Source: Dinochytrium kinnereticum
Taxonomy: Eukaryota > Chytridiomycota > Chytridiomycetes > Chytridiales > Chytridiaceae
Reading direction: 5' to 3'
NCBI GenBank assembly: GCA_027604005.1
Contig: JADGJT010000099.1
Location: 1 to 56,859, forward strand
Length of the DNA: 56,859 bases
Shown: positions 17,373 to 49,407 of the stretch, piece by piece
Position numbering within the stretch: the stretch's first letter is position 1
Layout of the letters: each line of letters opens with the position of its first letter
Position numbers and translations under genes: made by a program
The notes under the pieces: model-generated
The model's input: the letters and a program-made list of their open reading frames with translations, nothing else
The model's database searches: none
Told to the model about the DNA's origin: nothing

Positions 17373-17880
17373 TTACTCAGCGGCCTTCTTTGCTCGCTCG
17401 GCAGCCCTCAAGGGAGCAATCTTCATCTCAGTGTCTACAAACATAATTAGCAAACATAGTTAACGACTGGTGCTTACTGATAAAAGGGACCAAGAAGAAG
17501 GTGGTGGTGACGACAGCGAAGGAAGTGTACCAAACGAATCGGTTGCGGAAGCCAAAAGGAAGAGCCTGTTAACATCATGTAAGCATACAAATCATCAAAC
17601 CATCAATGTCATAGTCAAAGCCTACCCCGTTCTTGACCCAGTTGACACCCCTTTAAAGAAGATTCTAGGTAAGTATATCTCTCAAGATCGTCCTTAAAGC
17701 CAACAACAAAAGACGTCTTACTCAAAGGAGATGGGACCTATTGCAACCAAAAAAATGAAAGTTAGATCCGATATCAACCCCTCCATCATCTGGATATAAC
17801 TAACCCCAAGCGGACTTTGCGCCAGAGCTGGCGAAACGCCTGGCAATGGCCATGGAAGGGTTTGCGACTCTCGAGATCAT
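17373..17880 (-). CDS. COX8: Cytochrome c oxidase subunit VIIc/Cox8
   Basis: Small nuclear-encoded subunit of respiratory complex IV in the inner mitochondrial membrane. It has 88 aa in five exons: 17880-17805, 17737-17722 (16 nt), 17650-17626 (25 nt), 17565-17478 and 17434-17373. All phases close. The N-terminus (MISRVANPSMAIARRFASSG) is a classic matrix presequence. The mature part follows the family plan: GVNWVKNG before the signature LPF, a basic/aromatic RNRF, one transmembrane helix (WYTSFAVVTTTFFLVPF) ending in PF, and a charged tail (RAAERAKKAAE). The two internal microexons encode the segment just before LPF. The family match is by pattern (human COX7C: NLPF...FATPF); it could be confused with other tiny single-helix subunits. 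Confidence 0.75.
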
Positions 17881-18037
17881 GTTTGATTCAATATGTGGTA
17901 CGGAAACGACGAAACTTTTCTTTTTTTTCAAGAGCAGTCACCTCTGACTCAACCGAGTCGCACAAATGTCAACCAACACAGGACAACGTGTTCAACTGGT
18001 AGAGAAATTAAAAGCATAAATATTTAGGAAGATAATC

Positions 18038-19715
18038 TTAACGCCTATCTGGAGAGTCTTCGGTAATTCTGCATTGGAAAATAGAAATTTGTTCAGAGGT
18101 GGCAAGAAAAGAGATACATCAACGTACCGAATGACCCCTGCCAGTATCGTGACGTCGTCCAGCTTCCCGCCTTGATAATAAAGTCCCTCCTGAATAGCCC
18201 GCGTTTGAAATGGGCTCGAGATAGTCTTGTTATCTTCAGAAACATCCCTAGCTTTTCGCAAAAGGGCGTCGGTTATCTTCTGAGGGTCGCTATAAGCCGG
18301 ATTCCCTCCTTTAATCACACCCTTCACAATCTCCAATACCTCCTCATCAAAAACATTGTCAAAAATCCCATCAGACCCCATAATCACAATGTCGCCTTCA
18401 AGAACTTTTACAACATAACGCTGCGCGCTGGTTGGCCCGTCCCTGCTGCCTGTGCCGAGCTGAAATGGAAAGTTGAATGAGTGTTGTTGCTCCTCTGAAC
18501 GAAATATTGTTTCATTGTTTCGGATAATCATGAGACCACAGTCTCCAAGGTTTGCAATTCGGAGCTCGTCGTCCTTTTGAAGCAAAAAATAAATTAGAAT
18601 CTGAGATAGTCAAATAGTTATTCTGACCCTCAAAATTACGATCATAGCGGTAGTAGAACCGACAAGGCCCTCCGCCTCTGCATCCCGGCAGGTCATATCA
18701 TATGCATTTGAGAGAACCTGAATTGGATCCACGTTGTAATAGTCGTTGATGTCGTAATCGCAGTTTGCAATGTCATCAAAAGCCTCTAGCTGTTCACAAG
18801 CATAATGCATTATTTTTCGCGAATAAAGGGCTGGGTTCGCACCTAAGATAAAAGTGAATTGAACTATAAGCAATAATCATAAAAGCAACCAACAATTCTC
18901 ACCTTTAACTTGTGATTGCGACCATCCCCCAACCCCATCTGCCACTCCCATGGAATCATATCGACTAAAGTAAGAATCTTCGCCCACTTGCACACTGTAA
19001 TATTGGGAGGTCTTGTCCATCTTCGCTTTTCGATTCTTTGGAGCACCCGAAGCGGCGTGAATAAACTGAAAGGAAGGCCGTGTCTGCGGCATAGCCTTTT
19101 CACCAGCAAAAAAAAAAAACCCAAGTTAAACCACCTTCAAACCTCTACAGCCGCCAAAGAAAAAATCAAACCCACCATCTCAAGCATCTCAAAGATACTC
19201 GACGAATTCTTCTTGTCGAACCAAGCAAACGCTGGAGGTGGTATAGAACTGGCATCAGGTGCCAGCACCGACGCCATTCTCTTACTATTGATCTGCTTCA
19301 CCGCCCTCGGAATTCCTAACGTCTGTCCATGATCTGTCAGAGGTCCGGCCCGATGCGACGGGTCCAAGGCGTCTGAAGAATGCGATCTTTTCATCGCTGG
19401 CCTGTCATGTTGACAAACTGATGACGAGTGAAATGAGGAAGGACGACTGATTGCGAGAGATTGAGAAAAATGGGTGTCCTGAGATGCCCCTATGATGGGG
19501 TTTGAGCGAGGTTGACGGATTACTGAGTGTGATGAATGATGGCGTGGAGTAAGCGATGTTTCGGATTGGTAGTGGAATGGGCGAGAAACAGCATGATTCT
19601 TTGAACAGGCTTTAGGGCGTGAGGACGATTTAGATGAGAGCCAAGGATGGGGTGGAGGTCTGGGGTGCGTGAAGAGCAATCGGCGTGTTAGCTTGGTTGT
19701 TGGTGGGCAAGACAT
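18038..19715 (-). CDS. PP2C-type phosphatase, Ptc7/PPTC7-like
   Basis: Metal-dependent Ser/Thr phosphatase, probably mitochondrial; Ptc7 acts in coenzyme Q and mitochondrial phosphoprotein homeostasis. Five exons (19715-19176, 19095-18903, 18842-18628, 18573-18128, 18068-18038) give 474 aa. PP2C motifs appear in order: GVADGVGGW (metal-binding Asp), GSTTAMIVIL, ANLGDCG, GSDGIFDN and KLDDVTILAGV. The missing first metal-site Asp-Gly pair is replaced by the Ptc7-type EDSYF/DSMGVADG. The first ~170 residues are basic and Ser-rich and could carry a targeting sequence. The donor of intron 3 is an unusual GTCAGA but is forced by the family sequence (VILR|DDELRIANLGD). The last exon is only 31 nt. 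Confidence 0.88.
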
Positions 19716-20466
19716 CTATCTGTATTATTATTATTCAAATATATTATTTTTATTCAGAAATTTATGAGTTTTCGTTCTCCATCAGGCAACATGTATGGCA
19801 CATGATTACTTTAATTAAAGAGTGAGGGTGAATCGTCAGTAAAGGATGAGAGAATCACACGTCGAAACCACTCAGACGTGCGATAGCTCCTGATTGCAGG
19901 ATTTCAAAGAAACATCAATTCTCATTATTCTTCAATTTTTGCGATTACTCGCTGACAACCAAAAGGAAAGCGGGTTAGATTGAAGAAAATGAGCTTGTGA
20001 GAATGAGCACATGTGGTCGATAAAACAATAAAAGACTAGTACAGCTTTGATCAGCGTTGACCGTTTGTTACTGCAACCCCTGTTGTAAATGACAAACCCA
20101 CAAAAGTCTAAAAAAAGTGTGGCGCATCCAGCCATTCCGTCCCCACCTTCACTCCAAAATACGACTTTAGTTGCGTCAAATTGAATTGACTCGAGCGGAA
20201 TCCCAAACAGTGCAGTGAGTGATGGGGTATAGACGCTCCTTCATTTGTCATCTCGACAAAAAGTGTTAAGACAGAAATTTGCCAGCTGTTGTTGTCTCTC
20301 AAAGAATATCGGACGACGTCCGATCTCGTGGAGGTATAAAAGGCAGGCTTGTTCCCCCCCTCGGACAAAGGTCAGTCCTCTTATAGCCTTTGGCTCGCCG
20401 ACTTCACCACCCTCCTCAACGCAATCCATTCCTTCTCACCCCACCACCATTGGTTAAGGCGCAGCC
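19716..20466. other. Divergent promoter region between PP2C and RNR1 genes
   Basis: Contains the TATA box of the ribonucleotide reductase gene (20335) and an inverted pair GGACGACGTCC at 20311-20321 just upstream of it. No gene is seen. Confidence 0.5.
20335..20342 (+). promoter_or_regulatory. TATA box of the ribonucleotide reductase gene
   Basis: TATAAAAG lies 125 bp before the RNR1 start codon, at a plausible core-promoter distance. The 11-bp palindrome GGACGACGTCC just upstream could be a regulator site (ACGT core). Confidence 0.6.
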
Positions 20467-23305
20467 ATGTACGTCGTAAAGAGAGGTACGATTGGTGTGC
20501 TTGACTGTCCCGTTGTGTTTGCTTTGCTCGTAAGCGGTTTCCGTGGCGATGCTAACCATATTCGGACATCAATTGAAGATGGCAGGCGGGAACGTGTTGC
20601 TTTCGACAAGATTACCGCCCGTATAAACAAGCTTTGCTACAACCTTGACGTTAACTTTGTGGACCCTGTTCAGATCACTCAGAAGGTGCGTACAGCTTTC
20701 CTACAACTTTCCCTGAATGAGCTATGACTTACTAGTGTTGGTATGCAGGTCATCAGCGGTGTCTATCAAGGTGTGTCCACTGTCGATTTGGACAATCTTG
20801 CAGCAGAGACTGCCGCATATCTAACGGTAAGCCATCTTTATATTTGCGGGATTATGGCTGAATCATATGTAGACTACCCACCCGGACTACGCGACTCTTG
20901 CCGCTCGTATTGCCATTTCCAATCTCCACAAGGAGACTAAAAAGCAGTTCTCTGCGGTTATTGACGACCTTTACCAGTATGTCAACCCCAAAACCAATGA
21001 GCGTCAGCCAATGCTTGCCAAGGCTTTCCATGAGACCGTCATGGCTAATGCAGAGGTCTTGAACGCTGCCATTATTTACGATCGTGATTTCAACTACAAT
21101 TTCTTTGGGTTCAAAACTCTTGAGCGTTCCTACCTTCTCCGTATTGATGGTCGTATCGTCGAAAGACCGCAGCACATGCTGATGAGAGTCTCCGTTGGCG
21201 TTCATGGTAACGATATTCAGTCCGCGATTGAGACCTACAACCTTCTTTCGGAAAAGTACTTCACGCATGCTTCTCCCACGTTGTTCAATGCTGGAACACC
21301 TCGGCCTCAGCTTTCATCTTGCTTCCTTTTAACAATGAAGGATGACTCTATTGAGGGGATTTACGAGACCCTTAAATCTTGTGCCATGATTTCTAAGACT
21401 GCTGGAGGCATTGGCTTAAACATCCACTGCATTCGAAGCCAAGGTTCCTTCATCGCCGGCACTAATGGTCATTCGAACGGAATCATCCCTATGCTCCGTG
21501 TATTCAACAACACTGCCCGCTACGTCGATCAGGGTGGAAACAAGAGGCCAGGAGCTTTTGCAATCTACCTTGAGCCATGGCATCCAGATGTTTTTGAGGT
21601 ATTCTTTTTCCTTATTGTTTGTTCATCTATAACTAACATTCTTTTGCAGTTCCTCGATTTGCGGAAGAACACTGGAAAGGAAGAAAACAGAGCCCGTGAC
21701 TTGTTTTACGCTTTGTGGATTCCCGACCTGTTCATGCAGCGCGTTGAACAGAACGAGGATTGGTCGCTCTTTTGTCCTGCGGAAGCGCCGGGTCTTCACG
21801 AAGTCTGGGGCGAAAAATTCAATGTATATATCTTCTATTTTGTAACTTTATGCCCTAACAGTTGTATAGGATCTTTATAAATCGTATGAAAGGCGTGGCC
21901 TGGCTCGCAAGGTTGTAAAGGCCCAGAAGCTCTGGTACGCCATTCTTGAGGCTCAAACTGAAACGGGTACGCCGTACATGCTCTACAAGGATGCTTGCAA
22001 CCGCAAGTCCAATCAACAAAATCTTGGAACCATCAAGTGCAGCAACCTTTGCACCGAGATCATAGAATATTCGGCTCCCGATGAGGTCGCTGTTTGCAAC
22101 TTAGCCTCGATCTCTTTGCCTCAGTTCGTGATCAACAAAGATTTATACGATTTTAAGAGGCTGCGCGAGGTAATTTTCTATTCTTATTGCAACCTTTCCC
22201 TTTTTAATTCTCTCTCTTGATCTTATTGCAACCTTTCTCTTTTTTGATTATCTCATGAGACCTAATTCTGACTTTAATGTAAGGTTACGAAAGTTGTTAC
22301 CAAGAACCTTAACAAGATCATTGATGTCAACTTCTACCCTGTTGTGGAGGCAAGTAACTCAAACATGAGGCACAGGCCCGTTGGTCTTGGTGTTCAAGGT
22401 CTCGCAGACGCCTTCATCAAGATGAGAATGCCTTTCGACTCGGACGCAGCTAAAGCTCTCAATAAGAAGATTTTCGAGAATATCTACTATGCAGCTCTAG
22501 AGGCATCAAGCGAGATTGCCGAAAAGGATGGACCGTACTCAACCTACGAAGGGTCGCCCGTTTCAAAGGGTATTTTGCAACCAGACATGTGGGGTGTGGA
22601 CCTCTCGTCTTCAGATCTTGATTGGGATGCATTAAGGGCTCGCATTGCGAAGCACGGTGTTCGGAATTCTTTATTGCTTGCACCTATGCCCACTGCCTCT
22701 ACGTCTCAAATTTTGGGCAACAACGAATGCTTTGAGCCTTACACCAGCAACATCTACACCCGTCGAGTTCTCGCAGGAGAGTTCCAGATCGTCAACCCGC
22801 ACTTGCTTAAGGACCTCACTGAACTTAATCTTTGGAATGATAGCATGAAGAACCGCATCATTGCAGAGAATGGATCTGTTCAGAGAATTCCTTCGATACC
22901 CAGTGACATTAAGGCTATATACAAGACAGTTTGGGAGATTTCTCAGAAAGTTATAATTGATATGGCAGCCGATCGTGGAGCATTTATTGGTAAGGCTATA
23001 TCCCAATCCTCTTACATGATCTTAAATATTACGTAGATCAATCGCAGTCCCTGAACATTCATCTCGCGGATCCAACCTACGGCAAGCTCACCTCAATGCA
23101 TTTTTATGGATGGAAGAAGGGGCTCAAGACTGGAATGTACTACCTTCGAACTAGACCCGCGGCTGATGCCATCAAATTCACTGTTGACACTCAAAAATTG
23201 AAACAGGATGATGCAACGGCAGCTGCCGAGGCTCGTGCTCAGAGTGAAGCTGCTTTGGCCTGTTCTTTGGAGAATCGTGAGGCCTGTGAGATGTGCTCCG
23301 GTTAA
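20467..23305 (+). CDS. RNR1: Ribonucleoside-diphosphate reductase large subunit (class Ia)
   Basis: Catalytic R1 subunit that reduces NDPs to dNDPs, paired with an R2 radical subunit in the cytosol. Eight exons (20467-20485, 20579-20685, 20749-20826, 20873-21598, 21650-21823, 21870-22169, 22284-22989, 23037-23305) give 792 aa, the same as the human protein. The ATP-cone starts at MYVVKRDGRRE. The active-site Cys residues are present in LSSCFLL, in SNLCTEI (thiyl radical Cys with catalytic Asn/Glu neighbours) and in VAVCNLAS. The family motif [19 protein letters not shown] is intact. The tail ends EACEMCSG, the Cys pair that passes electrons to the active site. Exon 1 codes only 19 nt. A TATA box lies 125 bp upstream. 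No disruption is seen. Confidence 0.98.
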
Positions 23306-23732: not shown

Positions 23733-26171
23733 ATGCATGCGCAGGATCCTGGTATTCAAGCGAAACCTCCGCCTGGATCTTTTGATCCGACTGGACGGCA
23801 CATGTCGCCACTAGCAAACCGACCATCATCAGGCTATGTTTCGGCAAAACCTGTTGCACCCACAGATGTACCTGGGATGGGGAATGGAGCAGGGGGTTCA
23901 TATTATGAATTATATACGGGGCCTCCTTCGAGCTTCAGACCTCCAACTAGACTTGTTTCGTTGGATTACTTGGATAAAGTGAGAGATGAGCTTTTGGCCT
24001 TGGAGTCCAAGGTTGAATTACTGTCGCGAGAGAAAGCAGACCTTCATCCGGTTTGTGACGGGCTACACTAGACCCAGAGAACTGAATCTCTCTCCAGTAC
24101 TATGATCTTTACCAGAAAGCCCAACAGGACGTAAATCGGTACATGGATGTGAATAATCGCTACCAAGCGATCATAAATCAGCTGCTACCCATGCTCACTC
24201 TTCCTGTTCAAGAAGGAGTTAGGCAGGATATGGAATCTATTAAACTATTAGCGTTTAGTGTAAGAGTTTTTCATACGTTCCTTCTTTGTTATTAAAGTGT
24301 CGAAAGTCTGTTCCTGCCCCTCAGCCGCCACCGCCAGCTTCCGCCGCACCACCTCCCGTTGATGCGAATGTAATTATAAGGTTTCTTCTCATTTTTAATG
24401 CATTCAGATCTCGTCCAATCCTTCACGACCCCCTCCGAGTTTGTCCGGGCAGCCACCTTCTTCGGCGACAAACAATGGATACAATTCAGTTGAGGCTGAT
24501 AGAAAATCACGGGGCAGGCAATCACAACCATCTAATACACCTCAAGGTAATCTGCTTTATCTTTCATGTCTGTTTGTCTAAAGAATTTCAACTTGGCTTA
24601 GGCCCTTTGAAGAGGCAAAAGGTTGACGAGAGACTGGATGGAAGTTGTGAGTTGCTTCATGTTTAACTTCTCTTTTGGGTCTTTTGGGTTAATTGCCTTG
24701 TTTTCTGGGTGTTTTTTTTCTTCTTCTGAACTAATTAATTCTACGTAGATTATGAGAGCACCGCAGATTACAATTATGGAAGAACTCAATCACCGCCTCC
24801 ACAACCGCCAATTGCACCACCTCCGAATCCTCTATACCCAAGGTTAAATCGATAGTGTTTTTAAATTTATTAATCACACATACCAGTCAGCCGCCTTTAT
24901 CGAGTCAGCCAGCTGACTATACAGGCTACAGTGCGGCACCTCTTGCACCATCCCGGCCTCTGGTCCCGCAGGGTGCTAGACTTCTGGCATCATTAAATCA
25001 TAAGGAGGTTGTGTGCTCGTTCGCAATGACGAACCCGTTCTCTTACGTGTTTACTGGGGGCAAGGTATTTTTTGCTACGGTTCATTTTTTTAATTCTCTG
25101 AAGGGTGCCGTTAAAATATGGGATGTTACTCGCGTGAGAGAAACAAAATCTGCGCCACTAGTCGGAACTATGGACTGCATGGTTTGAGTGGGCAGTTTTC
25201 TTTCGTCTAATGGGTGGTAAAGGATAGCTATATTCGGGCGACAAAGATGACAAATGACGGCCAGAGGCTTATTGTTGCCGGGGAGGTGCATCATATGGTT
25301 ATTTGCGATATTGCTTCGGTATTTTTATTACCCTTTTCAGTTGTATCTAATGATTTCGTAGTCTGTTCCTAGAGTTATTGGAAGGATAGAAACACCGAAT
25401 GTGTTGACGTATGCACTAGCAACCAGCAACGATTCAAAATACCTATTTAGCTGCTGCAGCGATGGTGCTGTTAAGATGTGGGATATCAACCAGAAACGGT
25501 TGGTTCGCACTCTCGGTCATCATGCATCTACAGTTACGTGTTGCACTTTAACCCCGGATGGTCATCGCCTTATCACTGGATCTTTGGATAAATCGGTGAA
25601 AGTATGGGATGTGCTTGGTGGAAAAGAAATAGCCCATCTTGAATACCCGACACCTATATACTCCCTTGGATTTTGCCCTATACAGCCTTCTCGTATCACA
25701 GTCGGGTAAGTATGCAGTAATATTTCACTCTGTGAATGCAATTTGGTAAGACTTGATTTAACAAGCTTTTATCTGTTTAGCCTGGAGAAGTCCATCGAAA
25801 TCAGAAATATTTCTCAACCAACCGAAAAGAGGGAAATCATGGGAGTGCACCAGGACTGCGTCCTCTCTGTGAAGTATTCTGCGAGTGGCAACTGGTTTGC
25901 GACGACAGGAAAAGATAAGAAATGGGTATGCTGGAGAACATCCGACTACAGTTCAGTTTTCGAGGTATGTTTTCAAAAGAGCTTTTTGGGTTTGCGCCTA
26001 AGTCGTTCTTTTCTTAGATGCCGGAATCTTCATCCATCTTGTGCGCTGAAATCTCCGCTTGCGGTGATTATATGGTATCTACCATTACTTCCTCTTTTGT
26101 TTTAATCATGTTGAGTTTAGGCTACTGGCTCGGGTGACAGCGTTGCGAACTTGTATTCAATGGTCTATTAG
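23733..26171 (+). CDS. Groucho/TLE-like WD40 transcriptional corepressor, copy 1
   Basis: Likely nuclear corepressor. Thirteen exons (23733-24050, 24098-24259, 24298-24369, 24408-24546, 24602-24643, 24749-24842, 24887-25064, 25104-25181, 25223-25318, 25362-25705, 25781-25964, 26018-26074, 26121-26171) give about 604 aa. Residues ~75-160 form a coiled coil like the Groucho Q domain (KVRDELLALESKVELL, then an Asn/Gln-rich helix ending QAIINQLLPML). A Pro/Ser-rich linker follows with a basic LKRQKVDE nuclear-signal candidate. The propeller shows Groucho-type rather than Tup1-type sequence: LNHKEVVCSFAMTNP, VFTGGKGAVKIWDV, LFSCCSDGAVKMWD, IYSLGFCP, HQDCVLSVKYSASGNWFATT and a terminal ATGSGDSVANLYSMVY. 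Exon 3 may start 9 nt later. Compare the opposite gene at 29489-32446. Confidence 0.88.
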
Positions 26172-27284
26172 ATATGTCTGCAGATGCCACTTTATTTAAT
26201 AACCGATGCGTGGCTCCCTACCTGTACTTTTGTGCTATTTCCCTTTGCCAAATCTTTCTGTTCTTTTTTATAATATATTATTTTTTGAGTATCCCATCGT
26301 CTCAGTATTTTATTGATCACAATTTCATAAGAAGTTTGACTCTGTTTTTCTCTGTCAAAATGTCCGATTTTCGAACAACATCTTCAACACCATTTGACGT
26401 TTGAAGGGAAGTAAACGATGCCGCAGCATGTCCTCAAAGTATGATAGCACGCCAGCTCTCTTCTCCGCTGATATACTCTTCGCTGATATCACCACCTTAG
26501 ATACTCGACCTCCCTCCTATCACAATGATCACACGTTGTGTGAGACATACTCTTAAGAACAGCGAAGAGCTAGACCATCATTGTGCTCCTTTACGTAGAG
26601 AAGGGTGCTTATCTTCACTTGAAATCTGCCCTTGCAAGACTTAAGGCAGGTCTAACTCTTAACTTCTCAGAACTAGCTATTTACGTACGCTTTTTTTCAT
26701 ATTGCATTTATCCAAATAGTAATTTAACAAAGGCAATAGGTCGGCAACAGAATAATGTGATACTGGATGGGTGATCTCTGAAGCTCTCTCTGGGTCACCA
26801 TCCATGTGCTGCATTATCACGTACAAACCTCATTTGATGTGGTAAGTTTTGCAACTTTCTTTTTAAGCTTTATGAGATTGATCGGACACATTGCTTGACA
26901 TCGCTGTAAGCAGCAGGCTATCAAAGCACTATCAAGGCACTCTCAAATTTCTGCTAAATGAGCCTCTTAGCGATCGGTGGAGGGTAATTCCTACTCTACA
27001 TTAGTTGTCTCAACTTGATATGGGCGAACGCGCATCAAAATACTTGAAGGTTGCCTCAACCACAGCATACACTCCTGCTGTTCAAGGTAGTGACCTCTGT
27101 ACCAGTTGGGTAGCGAGGATGTCGATTTTACTGAAGTGCAGTTCGCCTGACAACCTGTGCTACCATTTTGAAAAATCCACAAACTGAGCAGTAGTTGACC
27201 CAGGATCCTCAACGCCCGTAAAACCCGCATGCGCCTTTCCTCCTTCTGCTCCTTTCAGCGTCTTCTAGCAACTTATTGGCAGCA
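26172..27284. other. Intergenic region, AT-rich
   Basis: About 1.1 kb without a supportable gene. Short imperfect direct repeats occur near 26455-26490 (CGCTGATATA/CGCTGATATC) and 26920-26945 (TATCAA(A/G)GCACT). I see no coding structure. Confidence 0.45.
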
Positions 27285-28665
27285 ATGATTAATATTCGAA
27301 GTGGAGGAGCAGAAAGTCGAGGGCATGTGAACAGCCCTCAACCTTCCCACGCTCCCATGGCTGGTCGAAACAGTTTCAGCACCTTTCCTAGACGGAAGGT
27401 CTTTCAAACACAGTATCAGTTTAATCCTTATGGTGCCAGTGAGAAGCGTCATCAGCCGGATACCTTGCCGCATGTGCCTTCGATGAGACGGCGGATATCT
27501 ATTCCTGGATCTGGCATTTCGCCAGCCAAAGCTGCGAGTGGGCTCGCGGACACATTAGTATCAGATATCATTGAGTCTGGGAAGTCGACTTATGACTTGA
27601 GGTAAGGCACTTTGAGTGAGGTTTAGGGTTGCTTAGTTGGATTCTTTTTTTTTTTAAATTTGTTTGTTTGCTGTAAGCTTATTTCCTTCTCTCGATTCTG
27701 TATTTTTGTTATGCCATTTTTTAGCTGTCAACAGTTTGATAAGATCCCAGAAGTTGTTTTTTGCCTGGTTAGTCTATATCTTCCGAATCTTGTTCTGTCT
27801 GCTAACAAGCACAACAGCAACATTTTGTTACAGTCGACCATAAGCAAGCCATTACAAATGGCATTCAGCTCTTCCTTCACACAAATGCATTGAGATTTCT
27901 GGATAATCGACTCTTCAATTTGGAAAACCTCACGGTGTTGAGCTTACGTAAGTCGCAACAGCAAGAACCATTATACTAATTTATGTAGGCATCAACCAAA
28001 TCGAAATATTGCCACCTCAGATTCTTGCACTAAAAAATCTGGTTGAACTTTCTGTCGGTTCAAATCTTTTGGTGAGAAATGACGAGAAGAAATGCCATCT
28101 AACAGCCTCTTTCATAAGAAATACCTTCCGGGGGAGTTGAACGACCTTCCCAATCTCACCAGTCTTCAAGCCGAAGCAAATCCGTTCCTCCCACAGCCCT
28201 CCGACGCCATCTCTGTCCCATACAACGCCAACAACCGCCGGTCACCACCCTCCTTGCAGGAGTTGGCTCAGATTGAGCTGATCCGCAGCCGACGTCTAAC
28301 GGACAAGCATGGTATCCTTCAGCTTGGATGGATCTCGCAGGCTAACCGGAATGATTTGCTGGACGCTGTTGAGATGAAGCGGTATGGACAGGGGTGCAAG
28401 AGGTGTGGCAAGTTCTTTATTAGCGCTGGGTACGAGAGTCTTGTATGGCAGACCTGTAAGGCGCCTAAATTGAGGAGGGGGGAAACTGTGTATCCGTTCT
28501 TGATGAGGTCAGTTCAATTTGTTCTTGCTCGAACCTCCTTTTATCTTCTTAAATCGTGTTCGTGTCTGACTGACCTTCCGAAATTCCTTTGTTTTGTTTG
28601 TTTTTTGTGCTCTTAGGTTTTGTTCTGCTTATTGTGGGATGCAGTACTTGTCGGCAGTTCCGTAA
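27285..28665 (+). CDS. Leucine-rich-repeat protein with C-terminal Cys pairs
   Basis: 336 aa from six exons: 27285-27601, 27725-27767, 27818-27947, 27989-28071, 28119-28507 and 28617-28665. The N-terminal ~80 residues are basic and disordered. Three or four LRRs follow (FDKIPEVVF; ALRFLDNRLFNLENLTVLSL; INQIEILPPQILALKNLVEL; LNDLPNLTSLQAEANPF). A C-terminal module contains CKRCGKFF and RFCSAYCG, two Cys pairs about 45 residues apart that could bind zinc. Similar LRR plus C-x2-C/C-x3-C proteins occur across fungi; their function is not settled. It sits between two convergent Groucho-like genes. The 47-nt intron at 28072-28118 is forced by frame. The start is the first ATG of the open frame. Confidence 0.75.
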
Positions 28666-29488
28666 TTTTTTGTTGCCAGTCTCCACCGCACTCCACTTGG
28701 TTCACATCTCCCTGCTTTTTTTTCACAAATGATTTGATGTGAAATCCTCTATGATTCCCTCTTTTTTTTTCACTTTTTTTTTTGCTGTATATTTGATGAG
28801 AAGAGATTTGCTGTCGCCGCTTTATTGTTTGATATACCTTTGTCCGCCTTTTCCTTTCTTTGTTTTTTTCGCCCTCCTTTTTTTTGCTTTTAGATCGCTT
28901 GTCGTTTGTCATTTCATCTAGACGGCCTGTCATCATTCAATCAAATATATCTGATGGCGGTTGAAGTGTTTAAAATCTTCTTTTTCCTTTTTTTTTTTTT
29001 TTTGGTTGTTCCTCTCATCCAGTTTGTAAAACACTTAACATTCAAGCCCGAGTTTAAACAATAAATAGAAGTAGGTGGTTTGGGTGGAGGGCCTGACACA
29101 CTGAAACAAGCAACAACGGTAGACCAAGGGAAACAACATTACAGAAGAGGAAGAAAATAGAGAGAGAAACAAAAAAAATAAAAATAAAAATAGACTGCGC
29201 CTCCAAGTATAGAGAAGAAATCAAATGAAGATTTGCAATCTGTCCTTAGAGCAGAGACGTCAGTAAAACAATAAAGAAACCACTAGAGTAAATAAGACGT
29301 ATTAAAAATAAAAAAAAAGACTGAAAGAACCATCGAATTACCAAGAAAAAACAACCATAGCGTTTGGCAAAAGATAAATAGATAAATATTACGCCAAAGA
29401 ACGGGACTAACTAAGGTACTTGGCGAGCAAGAAAAGGGTCTATAAACGATGGGTAGAGGGGTGGGCGGCATTTTTTTCTTTCGGCCGT
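28666..29488. other. Intergenic region with homopolymer tracts
   Basis: Shared 3' flank of the LRR gene and Groucho-like copy 2. It contains T runs (for example 28987-29003) and A-rich sequence. No gene is seen. Confidence 0.5.
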
Positions 29489-32446
29489 TTAAGCATCGTA
29501 AGATATCTTATACACAGTGGCTGTTGAGTTACTCGATCCCGTCACCTGTGAAAGAAGAAGACTCACATTACCAAATGAAAAGAAGAAAGAAAAGGAAGAG
29601 AGAGAGAGAGAGAAAGAGAGAACGAAAGCTCACCACAAACCCTCCACACCCCGCCACATCCGCACAGAGCACAGCATCCGTCTCTGAGATCTCTCCAATC
29701 TTTTGCGAATCGAGGCTTCGAAACATCTGAACTTTTCCAAACGTGTTCGCTCCAATGTACCATCCCCCGTTACGGCTGTATCGAATCGCGGGCCATGAGC
29801 AGCCTTCCACTGTGGGGAAGGGGGGTTTGTCGGTTGCCTCTGAGGGGTCGTGGAGACCGTTGAGGAGGGATTTTTGGACGATGCTGTCTTTTAAGCTATT
29901 GGAGAGTTTTTGTTTTAGGGTGTGGGGGGGAGGGGGGGGCGGCGGTGCGAGGATTAGTTGATCACTCATCTTCTTTTTCTTTTCTTCTCTTTTTTTTTTT
30001 TTAAAAAAAATGAATGTGGGATGTAGTAATCTTTTGGATTCTGATTGTGACTTACCCGGCCGTCATGATAGATGAGAAGGGGTCCAGGTCAAGACTGTAA
30101 ACATGAGTTGGGAACGTGAAGACGCCAAGAGTTTCCCCTGTCTCCATGTTCCAGATTCGAATGGTGTCATCGATAGAGCCTGATTATTATTTTTTTTTCG
30201 CAAAAAGTCATTTTTAAAGAAAAACAAAACAAGAGTGAAACCATTTATAGATTAGCGTTTGTAGTGAAGAAAGGGAAAGATAGAAAAGTATAAGTTTGAA
30301 TAAGTCTTGTTTGTTTTTTTTTGGTCACCAACCTGTGTAAACTTTAGTCATGTCCGCGCTTAATGCACAACTTGTGACGGGTCCTGAATGTCCGCTGAAA
30401 GACCTGACCGATTCAATAAAAAAAATAAGGCCAAAGAAAAAAAAAGACGTTAGACCACCCCCTTAAACTCAAAAAAGAAACGGACGAGAAGAAAAGAGAG
30501 AGAAAAAACCCGTACCTAATCAGCTCCTTGGTCCTAATCTGCCAGAGATGTGCCATATGATCGCTTCCACACGTAATGGCCCTGATCGAGTCAGGGGTGA
30601 CCTCGATAGCGTAAGTGTCAATATTGGGCGTGGGAATAGTCCCAGTGATGTTCGGGTTGGTGGTGCCGATATCGCAAATAGCGATCTCCTGGAACTCTCC
30701 GGCGGCGAGCAAGGTGCGGCCGTCAGGGGTAATCTTCATGCCTCTAATATAGTTCTTTCCCTGAAATGGGTCACAATGCTTTTGTTAATGTCATGAGGAG
30801 AAAAGGCTTCAATCAAAAAAGTGGCACTCACGCTACACTCAATGCTGGCAACCATTGCAGGCGTGACACCACCCTTTTCCACATCCCAAATCTTGATGGT
30901 CCCACAACTGGCCGTAAAGAGATACTTGAACGGTTTGCTGATGGCCATCGCGCAGACAACCTCATCATTCTGAATCTGACAGTGAACACCGAGCACCCTT
31001 GGCATCCTTGTCGCGGGGGGATGCTGGAGGTGCGCAGTATGGGTCATGATTGGGAAGCTGGTGTTTGGTGGGTTGGTGGTAGGGGTTGTGGGGGATGGAA
31101 GGGTGTTGCTTGTGGTAAGCCGGGCTAGGCCGTCAGTGGTGGTGATGGACGGGTTTCGGGAGATAGGGGTAGAGACGGATCTAATTGATGGTAAGGGTGA
31201 GTGAGTATGTCAGAAGTGAGAAGAGGATTTATTTGTTCTTACCTTCCAGGAATGGCCACCATGGCAGGTGGTGGTGCGGTCTCAATCACCATCGGCTTAA
31301 CGGACTCGTCATCGGATTCTTTGGTGTGGTAAGGATAGGGAGATTGAGAAGAAGAAGAAGATAGTAAATAAAAAAAAGAAAAATAATGGAGGGTTGGATA
31401 TAGGGGCATACCCTTCTTTCTCTTTATGGAATCGCTTGGAGGGGAGTTGGTCTTTGCGCGCTTTTGAGGGGGCTGTCCGGTGGGCGATTGTTGAGAGGTT
31501 TGGGGGATTGGAACCATTGCCGGAGCCGCAGCTGGTGCGACCATAGTGGCTGGCATAGGAACGTGCATCGCAGGATGAGCTGATAAGAGAGAGGGCTTTG
31601 GAGAAAAGTAAAGGGTTAGACATGGTGTCAATTACCTTGCTTTTTTAATCTTCATCGAAGGAAACTTACGTCGTTCGATATTTTGGCAATTTCATCCAAA
31701 TCCATTTTAACGCCAACCTGAACATGAATGGGCACCATCGGTTGCAGCTGCTTGATAATCGCGACGTATCTTCTTCCAACGTCCCTCTGCCTCGACATGT
31801 CATTCACAAGCATTCGAGTCATGTCAGCAAATTGATTCCTCTCCTTTACCGCCTGAGCGGTGATGGCATCCAACTTTCTCAGCGCCTTCCGAATGGGCTC
31901 CGAGATGGACTCCACCTTCAACTCCTCCAAAACAGGCGTCGACCAGCTGGGCGTCGGGCCAGAAGGGCTGCTGATATTGACAGGAGGCGGCACGGCGGTG
32001 GCATTCAAATGAATATGCGCCATCATCCCCGTCATCCCCACTACAGGGGCCATTGGCACCTGTGATTGCACGAGAAGCGTCCCAGGAGGGTGGTTCGCAC
32101 CAGCGGGAATGGCCATCATGGGTTGACCTTGTATGGAGATCAGAGTGGGTTGCTGATGGCCTGGAGGAAACGAGGGGACTTGAATGAGGGTGGTGGTCGC
32201 GGGCTTCCTAAGCTGAAGTGGGATGGAACCTGCCGCCGTGGGTTGTCCTGGGAGAGGCTTGTCGGTGGACGCCTTGAGGGGTCGCTTGACGTTTTGATTA
32301 GCGGTAGCGTCGGTTGATATTTGGGGCTCGGCGGTGGCGGCCACGGCGATGGTTGGGTTGGTTGAGGCTGGGACCGAGAGAGGGACATTATCAAAGTGCG
32401 CCGAGGCGTTCTTCCGAACGGCGGCCTTGGTGTGTTCCGATATCAT
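29489..32446 (-). CDS. Groucho/TLE-like WD40 corepressor, divergent copy 2
   Basis: Nine exons (32446-31670, 31595-31412, 31318-31243, 31180-30832, 30760-30516, 30403-30333, 30179-30056, 29895-29634, 29545-29489) give about 714 aa. A Pro/Ala/Thr-rich N-terminus of ~175 residues precedes a coiled coil (LEELKVESISEPIRKALRK to AIIKQLQPMVP) aligning in plan with the Q-domain-like region of copy 1. The linker carries PPQKRAKTNSPPSDSIKRKK, a strong nuclear-signal candidate. The propeller matches copy 1: NDEVVCAMAISKPFKYLFT, IKIWDV, NYIRGMKITPDGRTLLAAGE, THVYSLDLDP and VTGSSNSTATVYKISY. It is more diverged, with a poorly conserved fifth-sixth blade region (30056-29700). Three introns coincide with copy 1 in position and phase. 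The exon 8 acceptor (CCAATAG at 29896) was chosen over a purine-rich alternative. Confidence 0.82.
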
Positions 32447-33190: not shown

Positions 33191-33664
33191 AAACGAAATG
33201 CTACTTGCATGCATGAATGCATACTGCCTACTTTCACCCTTGCTGCTGCCTGCTCGCTCTCCACCCCGTCGTCGTCGTTGTTGGTGTTTCCTCTTTTGAT
33301 CAGTCGGAGGAAATTTTTCTGTTGAAGCACCTTCAACCAACTTTCGCACCCGCTCGCTCCCTTCTTCCCTTCCCACACATCCCTTCATCTTCATCAGGCC
33401 GCATCTCCACACAAAGCGCCTGGCGAGCAACCACCACTGCGAGATCATCAGTCTGACCTGTAAGGGAGGCTGCTTGACACCCGCACCTTTGCGAGAAGAC
33501 AGAGGGACACCCTACTCCGCGGGCTTTTGGACGAATCAAGTCCGACCCTTGCCTCACCTTCGCAAAAAAAAATAGGTTGACCGTATTATTATTCTGTTGT
33601 TGAGAGACGGGTAGGCATCAGCAGATCATCAAACACCTGAACGCCGGTGGAGCTGCTGGCTTCC

Positions 33665-36600
33665 ATGATTGCAACAACAATGCTGCTTGAGCCCCCGTCC
33701 TACGACATACCTCGGGCTGCCGAGCAGCATGTCGTGGATTTGGATGCATCCATCCTCAGTGAGGCCTCTGTGGAGATGAGACTCTCGGATCTCGACAGCG
33801 TTGAAGAGAAGGCGAGGCGTCAGCGTACCTTCACCGCCATGGTGCACAGGTTGATCGGTTCCGATATCACATCCATTCACATATCAGATGTGATTCCGCT
33901 CTTCCAAAGGATGGCACAGGATTCGACTTGCCACGAGGTTGGGGGACTTTCTTTGGGGGAATCGACACTGGCTCAGCTGAAGAGGCACGAGGATGATGTT
34001 CTCAAAACACAGCCAGACTTGAATATGACCCTTGACGAGCTATGGGGGCTTTTTGAGGGCTGTCTAAGGCCGACTTCAGACCTCCAGGCCATCGAGGGCC
34101 ACAGTGACGCATCAACGGAGCCAACCTTTTTGTCATACCCCTCACCGCACTCCTTGCTCCCTCGAGCCATCCCCGGCAGCCCATTCTTGGAAAAGGCAAA
34201 TGCTCTCCCATGCACCAATGAATCCGAAACTACCACCACTCCACCCCGCCCTATTTCAAGACCCAAATCACCGCCCTCATTTGGGCGAAAACGAACGACT
34301 CCCATCATGAGCGACAGCACTACAGCTCGACGTGCGTTCGAAGCCTCCCGGGCTCGCTCCCTGTCTTCCACAGAGGATGGGACGGAGGGTGGAATGGTGG
34401 GCGACATTGATGAGGGTCCGGAACTGTTGAATGACGAGCAGATTCCTGAGCTTGAACATTCTCGGGCGTCTCCACTTGATGTGGGGGAGGACCAGGATTT
34501 TCTCTTGTCCAAGGCTGAAATGGAGGCTTATGGCTCGGCTTCTGTTTACTACCCTGCTTCGAGCGGTGCGTCGGACTCTGAAATGGGTGATTATGAGGGG
34601 GCCAACCCGTTCCTCACCAAGTCATTGCACAAGAGAATTAGCGTCTTGACCAACGGTGCGAGTTTCAACAACGTGACTCCTCGCAAGGAGCTCGGGGAAG
34701 CCTTTCACACCCCTATGACTTCCATTAAACGGAACTTGAATGCCAATAACTCAAGATCCACTCCCTCACCATCCCTTGGCGGGTTCGGGTCGCGAGAGTC
34801 TCCGCAAATGACACCGCTGCAGGATTCGTGGAGTCCACTGGAATCTTCTGGATATGATCGTTCAAGGGGTAATTCTATCAGGCTTTCCCCGCGCCGGTAT
34901 CGAGATATTCAGGAGATAGTCAAGAAGCTTGGATTGCCCAATGAAACTTTTCGTAAGATCTGCAGATTGGACCTTGAGGCTTCGTCTGAGAGTGACGAGA
35001 ATGAGGAGTTAAGCTCCAGCGAGGTTTGTGACATTTATTCAATTTTGTTCTTTGTTGTTTTCTTTCTGGCGCTTAATATGCTATATGTGCCTTTTTTCTA
35101 GATCGCACGTATCACACAAGTCGTAGTGGGTTTAGCCGTGAGTCTAAAAGAAAAGGACGAGGAGCTCCGAAAGTCTCACAGAGACTCGGAACATCAGCTC
35201 GAAATTCTTCAAAGACGTATTGACGAGCTGATCGCTGAGTTGAAAAATAAGAAGAAAACTTTAGCAGCATCAAAGCTGAGCGAAAACGAGTATCTGACTC
35301 AGATTGAAACGGTAACTACTTTTTTTTTCCTGTCCTTTTGCTTTCCTCTTTCTTCTTCTGTGCTTGTCTATGCCTTTGGCTCTTTAGGGTTGAATGCGGG
35401 TTAACTCAAACTTTGGTTGTTCATGTCGCCGTTCCTAGCTTGAAACGGAAATTGAACGTTTGCAAAATGAAATCGCGCGGCAAAAGTTGATTTCGGAGGC
35501 TCTTAAATGTGAAGTCGAAGAACGTACAGGTAGTGTGTCGTTTAATAAATCTTTTCATGGGGCTCACGGCTACGCATCCTAACTCTTTTTTTTTTCTGAT
35601 TCTCTTTCCATTCATCTGCACCGATGCCCCAACCCCTTCTGGATAAACACAGAAATCAATCTCCGTTTGACAAGGGATCTTAAGTGGAAAGAGGAGGAGA
35701 TTTCAAAATCACGTTTAGAAATGGAGGTCATGCAAAAGGATAAATTTAAGGTGAGCACTCCCTCATCTCAATAGCAAGGCAGATTTAACCTTCCCTTTGG
35801 ATTAGAGCACGGAAGAAAAAACCAAGCTTGAAGATAACGTGCAACTCCTGACTGACCAAGTCACGATTTTTCAGCAGCGGATGAATGATCTTCGGGAGGT
35901 GAATATGCAAATGTCCGTAAAGCTTGATAGCGTCGAGGCGGGCAGGGATGATGCCCTTAGTGAAGCTACAGATATGGCCGCATTCTTGGAAAGTAGCCCA
36001 CGATCTCGAGGCACACATATCAAATCTCTAAGCGCAGAGTTGCATTCTGCGGCACAAACTGACGTTGAGCCATGTGATTTGGTAGGCTCGCTTTGTTTTA
36101 TCTTTCATCGTACGTAATGCTGACGTGTCTGTCTCTTCTACCTTCTACCCCTGTGACGATCTAGGTCCAAAATAAATCGTCCGATGCCATCACATGCGAC
36201 CCACCCCCTTCATATCATCCTACTAAAACCCCAACGGAGAGCATCGAGACCCAAACCGAAGGTTCCACAATTCCAGTCTCAACCTCCTCCACCCAGACCC
36301 CTCAAGTTCTCCTGGTTGACCAAGGCGTCTCACCTTCACCTGATATCACCGCGATAGATTTCACTTCGCAGACCGACCCAAAGCTTGGTCAATGGCGACC
36401 CATGCCCAGGCTGAGTGACTCCGATAGGAGCACGGACGTGGTCTTTCCTCAGACTGTAAAGGTTGATTCGGCCAGCCAGTGCTATGTGACGACGCTTACC
36501 GTCGGTGTCCAGGCTGGAGGTGAGGTTGCGCGCCGGGATTTGGAGAGGCATGGGGAGAGTCAGACGGAGGAGACGGTCACCTCTTTGGAGGAAAGGGAGA

Positions 36601-37744
36601 GGGTCGCGGAGATGTTAAGGGAGAGATGTGAGGCTTTGCAAGCGGTTGTGGAGGGGTTGGAGGGTCAAAGTATGTCGATTTTCTTCTCTTCTCTTTTCTT
36701 TTTTATCTAGGCGCAAGTTGGGTTCGTATTGACTACTCAATGTTTTTTCAACATCCAGTCGAGCAATTTGATTCTCTTAAAGGGTCTCTTGATGAATTGG
36801 AGCAATCTAATGTGAGATGAATCAATGGTTACTCAATATGTTATCTCTTACATGATCACATCAAACCTTTTGTAGGCCAACCTTCGTGACGAACTTCGAA
36901 AGGCACACGGGGCTTCTCAGGATAATCGTCGCCGGCTTAACCTTCGCAAGCACTATGATGATGAAGTCGAAAGGTGGCTTGCTGGAATGAGGCAACAACT
37001 AGATGCTGTGAACGAGTCTGTGGCAACTGCAAAGGATGGTGAGTGACTACTGTAATTTTTTGTGAAGGCGTGGAAGATTTGTCGCTATGTCTAATGTATC
37101 GCATTTCTTGGTTTTAGCCCTTGATATCAACGCCGGGAGACAAGTATCTGCTCTTGCAAGGATAGAAGAGCTCGAGAATGAGTTGGAGCATCATAAAGAG
37201 TTAAATTCCATCTTATCGGTACGAGGTTTAACCATTAAATACTTTCTCCATCCTTGTCCTAGGCTAATATCAGACCTCTTGTTTTCACATTCAGGCACCG
37301 GCCAATCCAGATAACGGCAGAGCCACACCGGAAACCTGGTCCTCTCCCTCCCACACCCGCGCAAACTCCTCCAACATGGTGGATCCTATCTTCTCCACAA
37401 TAACCACATCAACCGCCATGACCGCGGCACCCCTGATGAGGTTGTCCCCCAACGCCAACATCTTCTCTGTACCCCGCTGGGCCGTCCCTCTTCTCGTCTA
37501 CACCGTCGTCGTGTGGAACGCGGGCGCGAATTTCGGGGCAATGACGCTGCAACCCACCCTTGAGGCGTTTTCGACCTACCTTTATGCCGCGGGGATCATC
37601 CCTTCACCGACGTTTTTTGGGGTGGGATCGGATTTGACGGGGCAGTATGCGACGGGTGTGACGACGCCGATGATTGATAATTCGTGTAGGACGTCGTTTT
37701 TTGGGGGGTTGTTTGATGGAGATAGTGGGATGCCCCCCATGTAG
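33665..37744 (+). CDS. Large coiled-coil protein with C-terminal membrane anchor, KASH-like candidate
   Basis: 1,101 aa from ten exons: 33665-35023, 35102-35311, 35439-35529, 35653-35750, 35806-36081, 36165-36669, 36759-36811, 36876-37038, 37118-37218 and 37295-37744. All phases close. Residues ~1-150 form a compact acidic helical region (DVIPLFQRMAQDS; LNMTLDELWGLFEG). Residues ~150-440 are Ser/Pro-rich and disordered. Extended coiled coils fill ~455-600 and ~750-950 with a Thr/Ser-rich interruption. Near the C-terminus a single membrane helix (VPLLVYTVVVWNAGANFGAM) precedes ~75 residues ending in DSGMPPM, with one Cys 18 residues before the last. Coiled coil, tail anchor and a terminal Pro-Pro-x plan resembles KASH-domain linkers of the nuclear envelope (for example fission-yeast Kms proteins). 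That identity is inference; an SPB- or Golgi-anchored golgin is an alternative. Confidence 0.6.
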
Positions 37745-46543: not shown

Positions 46544-49407
46544 TCAAAGGTTTAACTCATCCACAATGCTAGCATAAATATCCCTGAATACAAATGCACT
46601 CCCCGAAAGCCTCTTTATCCTTATCCCATGCACCTTCAATAACCAAATCTTGCAAACCTCCACCTCAAATTCAACATCATTCTCAGAGTTCGGTTCCGCC
46701 AGTCTGCAGTTAAGCTGATAAAAATCATCCACCCTGCTGAAACCAATCCGATTATCATATTGTCTTTGAAGTATCAGAAGGACTCTATGAACTTCTTGGA
46801 AAATTGCCGCTGGGTTTAATGTTGACGTGGTTTTCGAGCTAAAGTTGTATCGAACCGCTCGGATCTCCTTTGCCGGACGGTGCATCAGATGCCAATCCTC
46901 AATCTCCTGCTTGGAGGGTACTACCGTCTCAGCTACACCACCTATTGAAACATTCATTTTATCGCCTGAAGATGCTCTTTCCCGCGTAGATGTAGTGCTG
47001 TCTGTTATCGTGGTCCCAACAATAATCGTGCTGGAAGGAGAGGTCGTGGAATCAAATGCAGACTGAGTAGGAGACACCTCCTTTGGCCCAACTGTCACCA
47101 TCGACATACGACGCATCAGGTTCAAGCTTCTGTCATCTCCATTACCGGTTGTGATAGTTGCTCTACGTCCTCTTCCTCCTCTTCGATCCATCGACATAGT
47201 ACTGCAGACTTCCGGTAACACCGCTGTCGGGGCTCCATTAGCTCCAACCGAGGACCGTGGCCCGGAAAGACATCCGGATGAGGTCTCATCCGCCGTAGAT
47301 GGAGCTGAAGATGTTGGGCTGCCTCTCGGTTCCTCCGTGCTAGACCTCGCGTGACTCCCCATCCCAAACAAGGGTGAAACGGGTGAAGAAGGAGCTCCGT
47401 CCTCCTTCCCACCACCAAATAAAAGTGTAATAGTGTTCCTACGCTTACGTTGATAAGGTGGCGCTTCCTTCTTGCCCATCTCTGCGCTTCCGTTATGATC
47501 AGGTGCCATAGAAGGAGTGGGTGTTGGCGCCGGTGGTTGAGTTGATCGAGTGGAGAGGTGGTTGGAGAGAGGGGATGGCTTTGAGGTCTCAAGAAGTGAT
47601 AACCTTCTTCCGCCTGTCCTACTTGCTCGTGGAAGGCTACCAGAGCCATTAAATCCTCTCGCAGGCAACTCTCCAATCTCATCTTCACCATCCTCCCGAA
47701 TAATCGCTGCCCTAGATCCAGGTGAGACAGATCGAGATGGCGAGGGTTGAGGCCGAAGGTCTTGCGCATTCGGAGGGGGGGCAAACGATGAACTTCGACG
47801 ACGCTGTGGCCCCACAAGAGAAGCAGAAGAGGTTTTGCGACGCTGCAGAGGCTGCTTGTTTTTGTCTGGAGCACCGTTAATGCTTTTGCCGTCTCTCATG
47901 TGGTTACGGATAGTATAAATTATGCAATCACTGTCTCGAGTGATAGATGCAATGAATTGGCCAACTTGAGCTGAAGTGGGGGGTCCCATCACCTTTGGAA
48001 CGACACGCAAGGGGGGTTCATCTTCGCCCATATTCACCCATGGGTCCGTTCTGAGTCCGTCCATATCAATGCGGGCCTTGGGATCCTTTTTTAAAATCTT
48101 CCCGAAAAGTGCTTTGAGTTCTGTATAGGGCAACAGATCAAGGGAGTGAAAGTTATAGAAGCGTTTGCTTCTGTAAAAAAAACATCTTACCTGATGAAAA
48201 ATAGTCCGGGCAGGTATAGTCTACAGCCTTAATCTTGCTGTAAAGAGCCGATATGTTCTCCCCTGTGAACGGGGGCTTCCCTGTCATCATAACATAAAGC
48301 ACAACGCCCATAGCCCAAATGTCCGACTTGACACCAATATATGGAATTCCTGATATTAGCTCAACTGCTGCATAGTTTGGAGTCCCGCAAAAAGTCTATT
48401 CGCGAGTAGTGAAAAAAATGGAACGATTAAAACAACGTCAAACCAACCCCCCCCCAGTTTTAATTATATCCTTGATCAAATATCAAACACACTAGAAAGC
48501 ACAAACCTTCATATACTCATCCGTATCATTCTGAAAAGTCCTTCCAAGACCGAAGTCCGAAATAATCAGCGTCTTGTTATCGGTCAAAAGAAGGTTCTCA
48601 AGCTTTAGATCGCGGTGCACGACATTAGCCATATGACAGTGATCCATGGCTGAAATGAGTTGTCTAAAAAATCTCCGCGCTTCCTTTTCATTGAGATGGT
48701 TCCGTGCAGCAATATACTCAATCAGCTCGCCCCCTGAAGCAAACTCCCTGCAAATAAGTTTAGTGGTTTGGAAAACAATTCGGAAAAAACTCACATAACA
48801 ACATAACACTCGTCCTCCGTCTCCATAACCTGATAAAGCGTGATAACATTCGGATGATCCAATCTCATTAAAAGCTGCACCTCAAGCTGCAACGCCGAAA
48901 CGAAAGATGGAGTAGACGACGAGCCAGCTTCACCAGTCTTTGGTTTCTCACCCTCACCACCAGCATTTTTGGCAGATTCTTCCGTCGTTACAGGTTTAGC
49001 TTCAGAAGCAGAGGCTGGTGCAGGCTGATCAGACTGCGGCGAAGTTCCAGCTGATTTGGTTGGTTGAGGCTGACCCTGATTTTTCTGCTGCTGCTCCCGC
49101 TCTGCGCGCTTCCTTCGTTCACGATCCTCATTGGCTTTTTTGGCTTTAGCAGCTTTAATGGCCATTTGCTTCTTATCTATAATTTTGATGGCAACCTGTT
49201 TGGGACGTTTTTTCGTCATTTTGTTTGTTTAAGCGTCAGTGGAATGGGGCGGTGTTGGGGGTTTCTGTCGGCTAAAAAAGCATTATCAAAAGTGTCCCTC
49301 ACCTTTTGCCCAGTCTCTTTATGAACACCCAATTTTACCTTGGAGAAGGCTCCTTGGCCAATTGTCTTCCCAACATGATAACTACCCAGTACCTTTTTCT
49401 CTGTCAT
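46544..49407 (-). CDS. MARK/Kin1-type Ser/Thr kinase with KA1 domain
   Basis: 842 aa from five exons: 49407-49303, 49195-48795, 48747-48507, 48395-48191 and 48120-46544. The kinase domain begins at the N-terminus: Gly loop IGQGAFSKVKLG, VAIK lysine, HRDLK catalytic loop, DFGLG, activation loop end TFCGTPNYAAVEL. The APE motif reads AVE. Between VAIK and the αC helix (LEVQLLMRLDHPNV) lies an insert of roughly 80 low-complexity residues, basic then Gln/Pro/Ala/Ser-rich (about 49165-48915). The long C-terminal region is Ser/Pro-rich. The end is a KA1 domain (EVEVCKIWLLKVHGIRIKRL ... IVDELNL), as in MARK/PAR-1 and yeast Kin1/2, which binds acidic membrane lipids. Likely roles are polarity or microtubule control. 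A decayed copy of its 5' third lies upstream. Confidence 0.92.

Follow-up and report, generated by a model that had tools for sequence, protein, structure and literature searches.

The closest described relatives of the genes reported here are Groucho, recorded in a table of PMC2959043 as missing from eukaryotes other than animals, and Tup1, termed the yeast homologue of Groucho in PMC4901127. The phyletic range of Groucho, as used in this study, rests on such papers and on general background knowledge. Here we describe two Groucho/TLE-type genes, A and B, on contig JADGJT010000099.1 (C99) of the Dinochytrium kinnereticum assembly GCA_027604005.1, together with a third copy, A', on contig C60 of the same genome. 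The window is the whole of contig C99 (56,859 nucleotides), and the genome scanned comprises 22.43 Mb in 558 contigs. Probably, A and A' are genuine Groucho/TLE corepressors of a zoosporic fungus, inherited from an opisthokont ancestor that possessed separate Groucho and Tup1 genes, and B is an older, faster-evolving paralogue.

As an earlier note on this DNA had claimed, the two genes face each other around a leucine-rich repeat (LRR)-like gene, with start ATGs at 23733 (plus strand) for A and 32446 (minus strand) for B. The exon models of both were made by hand, their weakest point being the acceptor of exon 8 of B; all 20 introns have GT..AG borders and are 38-153 bases long. The features of the three Groucho-type genes are as follows (positions are those of the window unless a contig is named).
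23733..26171, plus strand: gene A, Groucho/TLE-type corepressor; 13 exons, 605 amino acids (TLE1 match of 254.2 bits; tree)
23928..24259, plus strand: Q-domain-like coiled coil of A, exons 1-2, residues ~66-160 (TLE_N below cut-off; weak PDB match to the TLE1 Q domain)
24298..24944, plus strand: Pro/Ser-rich linker of A with the basic patch GPLKRQKVDE (translation, by eye)
24945..26171, plus strand: TLE-type WD40 propeller of A, residues 297-605 (one-stretch alignment to the TLE1 WD domain; pocket residues)
29489..32446, minus strand: gene B, diverged Groucho/TLE-type paralogue; 9 exons, 745 amino acids (TLE1 match of 140.3 bits; tree)
31670..31924, minus strand: coiled-coil region of B, similar to the second exon of A' (57 residues aligned at 38.6% in the comparison with C60, E 1.3e-7)
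29489..31014, minus strand: propeller of B, blade 6 of which carries an insertion (alignments; exon 8 acceptor uncertain)
C60:46876-49385: A', third Groucho copy (alignment to A)

When A was compared with the PDB by phmmer, the WD domain of TLE1 (1gxr) ranked first (254.2 bits, E 2.4e-74), aligning in one stretch over residues 297-605 at 41% identity. The next chain, the repeat-rich WD-40 protein 2ymu, scored 201.7 bits summed over 11 stretches, each of at most 29.1 bits. As a yardstick, TLE1 matches its own paralogue TLE6 at 195.4 bits, below its match to A. For B, 2ymu came first (172.0 bits, summed) and TLE1 second (140.3 bits, E 8.3e-40, with 125.6 bits in one stretch); a joint profile of A, A' and B gave 275.2 bits to 2ymu (summed, at most 38.1 per stretch) and 268.9 bits in one stretch to TLE1. 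Yeast Tup1 (1erj) was not among the best 60 PDB chains for A, nor among those for B. When TLE1 was used as the query on the genome, A (88.5 bits) and A' (85.4 bits) came out on top, followed by exons on C92 (47.0 bits) and C434 (43.8 bits) and the best exon of B (42.6 bits), while the Tup1 exons reached only 25.2 and 24.2 bits. The reciprocal best match with TLE1 holds for A and A' and fails for B. No Groucho-specific Pfam family was found among the best 25 of 47 matches for A, the top one, Beta-prop_THOC3, lying far below its cut-off. The similarity of A and B to TLE1 is far beyond chance. All the motifs quoted in the earlier note were found in the translation of A (LNHKEVVC, TNP, GGKGAVKIWD, SCCSDG, YSLGFCP, HQDCVLSVK and TGSGD), and the propeller proved to be of the TLE rather than the Tup1 type, A scoring far higher with TLE1 than with other WD40 proteins.

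A tree of 10 propellers (A, A', B, TLE1, two TLE6, yeast Tup1, the Tup1 of this genome and two of its other WD40 proteins) was computed with IQ-TREE from 344 columns; it is a small sample with 3 animal rows, and the yeast Tup1 and TLE6 rows, assembled from printed alignments, are not quite complete. A, A' and B together with TLE1/TLE6 were separated from both Tup1 proteins and the two other WD40 proteins with 100/100 support. Within these groups, A, A' and B (99/97) formed the sister group of TLE1 and TLE6 (94/91), and the two Tup1 proteins grouped at 98/96. The branch of B is long (1.35). The outcomes that the earlier note had named as speaking against its view, a better score with Tup1, Cdc4 or generic WD40 profiles or a place inside ordinary WD40 families, did not come about, and its Groucho/TLE interpretation is supported. 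Its description of both members as strongly diverged applies to B and not to A.

The genome also carries a separate Tup1 gene, on contig C392. Two of its exons match Tup_N (PF08581) at 36.9 and 28.5 bits, and these were the only matches in a genome-wide Tup_N search at E 0.001, which gave none at A, A' or B. In the PDB, yeast Tup1 (1erj) ranked third for the C392 propeller (225.5 bits), behind two repeat-rich proteins.

The copies A and A' share the same 12 intron positions and phases and are 82% identical overall and 93% identical in the propeller. Synonymous divergence between them is saturated (dS 2.1-2.6 by NG86; 139 of 234 fourfold sites differ), and non-synonymous divergence (dN) in the propeller is 0.043 (dN/dS ~0.02); A and A' are therefore an old pair under strong constraint. 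The propellers of A and B have three intron positions and phases in common, as judged by eye (before YIR, in the glycine before LEKS/EEKK and before TGS).

Upstream of the propeller, TLE_N was the top Pfam family for both copies, at 20.7 bits for A (E 5.8e-4) and 24.6 bits for A' (E 3.6e-5), below the cut-off of 32 in each case; the profile gave no match on B, and A' was the sole match in a genome-wide search at E 0.001. In the PDB, the coiled-coil region of A matched the TLE1 Q domain best (E 0.12); as bicaudal D follows at E 0.25, this match proves nothing by itself. The Q-domain-like coiled coil claimed for both genes is detected weakly in A, as it is in A', and is not recovered by profile in B. 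The basic patches in the linkers look like nuclear signals by eye. Taken together, the sequences display a TLE-type propeller, a Q-like N-terminal coiled coil, a linker rich in Pro and Ser that bears a basic patch, conservation of the pocket residues and the signature of strong purifying selection. By analogy with animal Groucho, the coiled coil of A and A' would make oligomers, the mouth of the propeller would capture short hydrophobic eh1/WRPW-like motifs of DNA-bound repressors, and the complex would silence the bound gene. B, with its pocket and blade 6 altered, probably serves other partners or modulates A.

Several observations weigh against this account. TLE_N reaches its cut-off in neither A nor A' and is unmatched in B; with stretches summed, both B and the joint profile score higher with 2ymu than with TLE1; and WD40 exons on C92 and C434 precede the best exon of B in the TLE1 search. 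Overall, B fits Groucho/TLE less well than A does. In addition, no convincing eh1/WRPW partner motif was found, eh1 having been read in three forkhead genes and one T-box gene.

The last of these points bears on the alternative that survives best, namely that the family members are no longer motif-recruited repressors, for example acting as a scaffold like mammalian TLE6, and that Tup1 does the repressing. The WRPW-binding hydrophobic ring of TLE1 is given, in a portion of PMC3419727, as Y532, Y578, L636, F661, L702 and L743. A and A' match five of these six residues, the sixth, F661, being Y. B matches three (Y532, Y578 and L743), with L636 replaced by I, F661 by Y and, in a poorly aligned stretch, L702 by P. 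Residues V486, C488, R534 and E550 of TLE1, which we take to be positions of known mutations, are identical in A, A' and B. On the side of the partners, a search for WRPW-stop gave nine pattern matches as against five in a reversed control; only three of the nine run to a genuine stop codon, the open frames around them having 40, 12 and 22 residues, and we attribute the matches to chance. A single eh1-like string, FDLNPLL, was seen upstream of one of the three forkhead genes, in a frame of doubtful coding status, and was rejected; at the T-box gene a loose pattern picked out hydrophobic stretches in several frames as well as a string within the T-box exon itself, none of them convincing. These negative results are in line with a report, in an excerpt of PMC1939712, that the Fox proteins of yeast lack eh1. 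A change of function would account for the missing partners, for the altered pocket and blade 6 of B and for the presence of Tup1, but the peptide pocket of A and A' is almost fully kept under strong selection, and eh1 was read in just the three forkhead genes and the one T-box gene; we consider such a change unlikely.

More improbable still is the acquisition of Groucho from an animal by horizontal transfer, followed by duplication. The description of Groucho as absent outside animals, in the table of PMC2959043, would favour it. In the tree, by contrast, A, A' and B stand together (99/97) as sister to TLE1 and TLE6 instead of within them, a placement that, with only three animal rows, is compatible with an early donor; the 12 short introns of A and the presence of two old paralogues also speak against such a transfer.

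A similarly low probability is given to the contig or the genome being non-fungal, through a mixed assembly or an origin in another opisthokont. Fungal_trans matches were found at 11 places on eight contigs, with a Zn2Cys6 cluster beside them by eye in four of six loci read, and these regulators, with Tup1, bear out the description of the source as a putative fungus. The IFT57 profile matches at one locus (57.0 and 46.0 bits), which suggests a flagellum; sub-threshold matches to the same profile also occur in 3 of the 14 prokaryotes used as controls. A T-box transcription factor gene lies at C163:15953-16573 (L060; 59.9 and 34.6 bits over two stretches). T-box genes occur in chytrids. Together, Fungal_trans/Zn2Cys6, Tup1, IFT57 and T-box indicate a zoosporic fungus or a near relative of one, although T-box and IFT57 are also present in holozoans. 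The composition of the window halves correlates with that of the Tup1 and Fungal_trans loci at 0.72-0.82, against 0.13-0.14 for shuffled sequence; agreement of the window with two short Cpn60 loci is poor (just 0.44-0.45). At least seven Cpn60/TCP-1 loci were found in the genome, and a single eukaryote has about nine. Since there are one Tup_N locus, one IFT57 locus and these seven Cpn60/TCP-1 loci, and since the composition of the window agrees with that of the fungal loci, a mixed assembly is disfavoured; nor is C60 favoured as part of a second genome, the Cpn60/TCP-1 loci numbering seven and not twice the usual nine.

The notion that A, A' and B are Tup1 or generic WD40 proteins merely resembling Groucho is barely credible: WD40 profiles do cross-match widely (with A as the query, 556 PDB sequences score within E 0.001), and a repeat-rich WD-40 protein ranks first for B, but the one-stretch TLE1 alignment, the 100/100 split in the tree and the presence in this genome of a distinct Tup1 bearing Tup_N all stand against it.

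Gene A lies in a block that is shared with C60. Window positions 17356-37741 and C60:8239-60825 are collinear for a PP2C gene, the ribonucleotide reductase large subunit, Groucho and an unknown gene, with order and orientation kept; the block spans ~20 kb on C99 and ~53 kb on C60, with different genes interspersed, and is, to judge from these sequences, a remnant of an old segmental or whole-genome duplication. B matches C60 at A' only, and the LRR stretch has no C60 match at E 1e-6. The block members and the gene between A and B are listed here.
17431..19715, minus strand: PP2C-type phosphatase, block member (PP2C, 36.1 bits; copy on C60)
20458..23305, plus strand: large subunit of ribonucleotide reductase, paired with A in the block (C60 copy, 96% over the main exon)
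33641..37741, plus strand: unknown gene or genes, block member (60% over 449 residues with C60; first frame without a Pfam match)
27286..28640, plus strand: LRR-like gene lying between A and B, with approximate limits (LRR text by eye)

The LRR text, at 27.2-28.6 kb, is readable by eye and spread over short exons, and Pfam gave no match there in the three frames scanned. Ribonucleotide reductase was also tried as a marker and was uninformative (best chains 372.7-373.3 bits, against 342.6 for the yeast chains). Elsewhere in the window are a gene for a three-repeat MYB protein (537-1682, minus strand, 128 bits), one for a cation-efflux (zinc) transporter (4644-5723, plus strand, 88.9 bits) and a frame ending in a KA1 domain (46544-48220, minus strand, 56.5 bits), which is probably a protein kinase tail.

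In the open-licence library searched, no paper combines "groucho" with "chytrid" or "aphelid", nor "transducin-like enhancer" with "fungal" and "chytrid"; "groucho" and "capsaspora" do co-occur, in five papers. Groucho-like entries for other zoosporic fungi may well exist already in automatic annotation. A search for Groucho relatives on viral contigs gave 28 stretches that fit the pattern, none of which was confirmed. The presence of Groucho in a fungus beside Tup1 is an unexpected range for a known family. That one fungus appears to have three Groucho genes beside Tup1 suggests that the two were separate before animals and fungi split; if they do occur side by side, they parted before animals arose, and Groucho may just have been lost in Dikarya. 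We see evenly balanced chances for the broader proposal that Groucho and Tup1 are ancient separate corepressors which both still run here, that A and A' read eh1/WRPW-like peptides of fungal repressors, and that the short-motif repression code predates animals. With a non-animal Groucho one could examine whether the recognition of eh1/WRPW, which lies at the heart of developmental repression in animals, is that old, and a fungus with both proteins makes the relation between Groucho and Tup1 directly testable.

Compared with known systems, A is most like human TLE1 and Drosophila Groucho (WD domain 1gxr; Q domain 4om2/4om3), sharing a full-length propeller alignment at 41%, the pocket residues and the order coiled coil-linker-propeller; it differs in that the Q domain is barely recognisable, the linker is short and Pro/Ser-rich, and the host is fungal. 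Mammalian TLE6 is, like B, a diverged paralogue with a TLE-type propeller, yet A is nearer to TLE1 than TLE6 is (254 vs 195 bits). Fungal Tup1 (yeast 1erj and the C392 copy) likewise combines a coiled coil, a linker and a seven-blade WD40 propeller in a corepressor; unlike A, A' and B, it carries the N-terminal family Tup_N and falls on another branch of the tree (100/100), and here both kinds are found in one genome.

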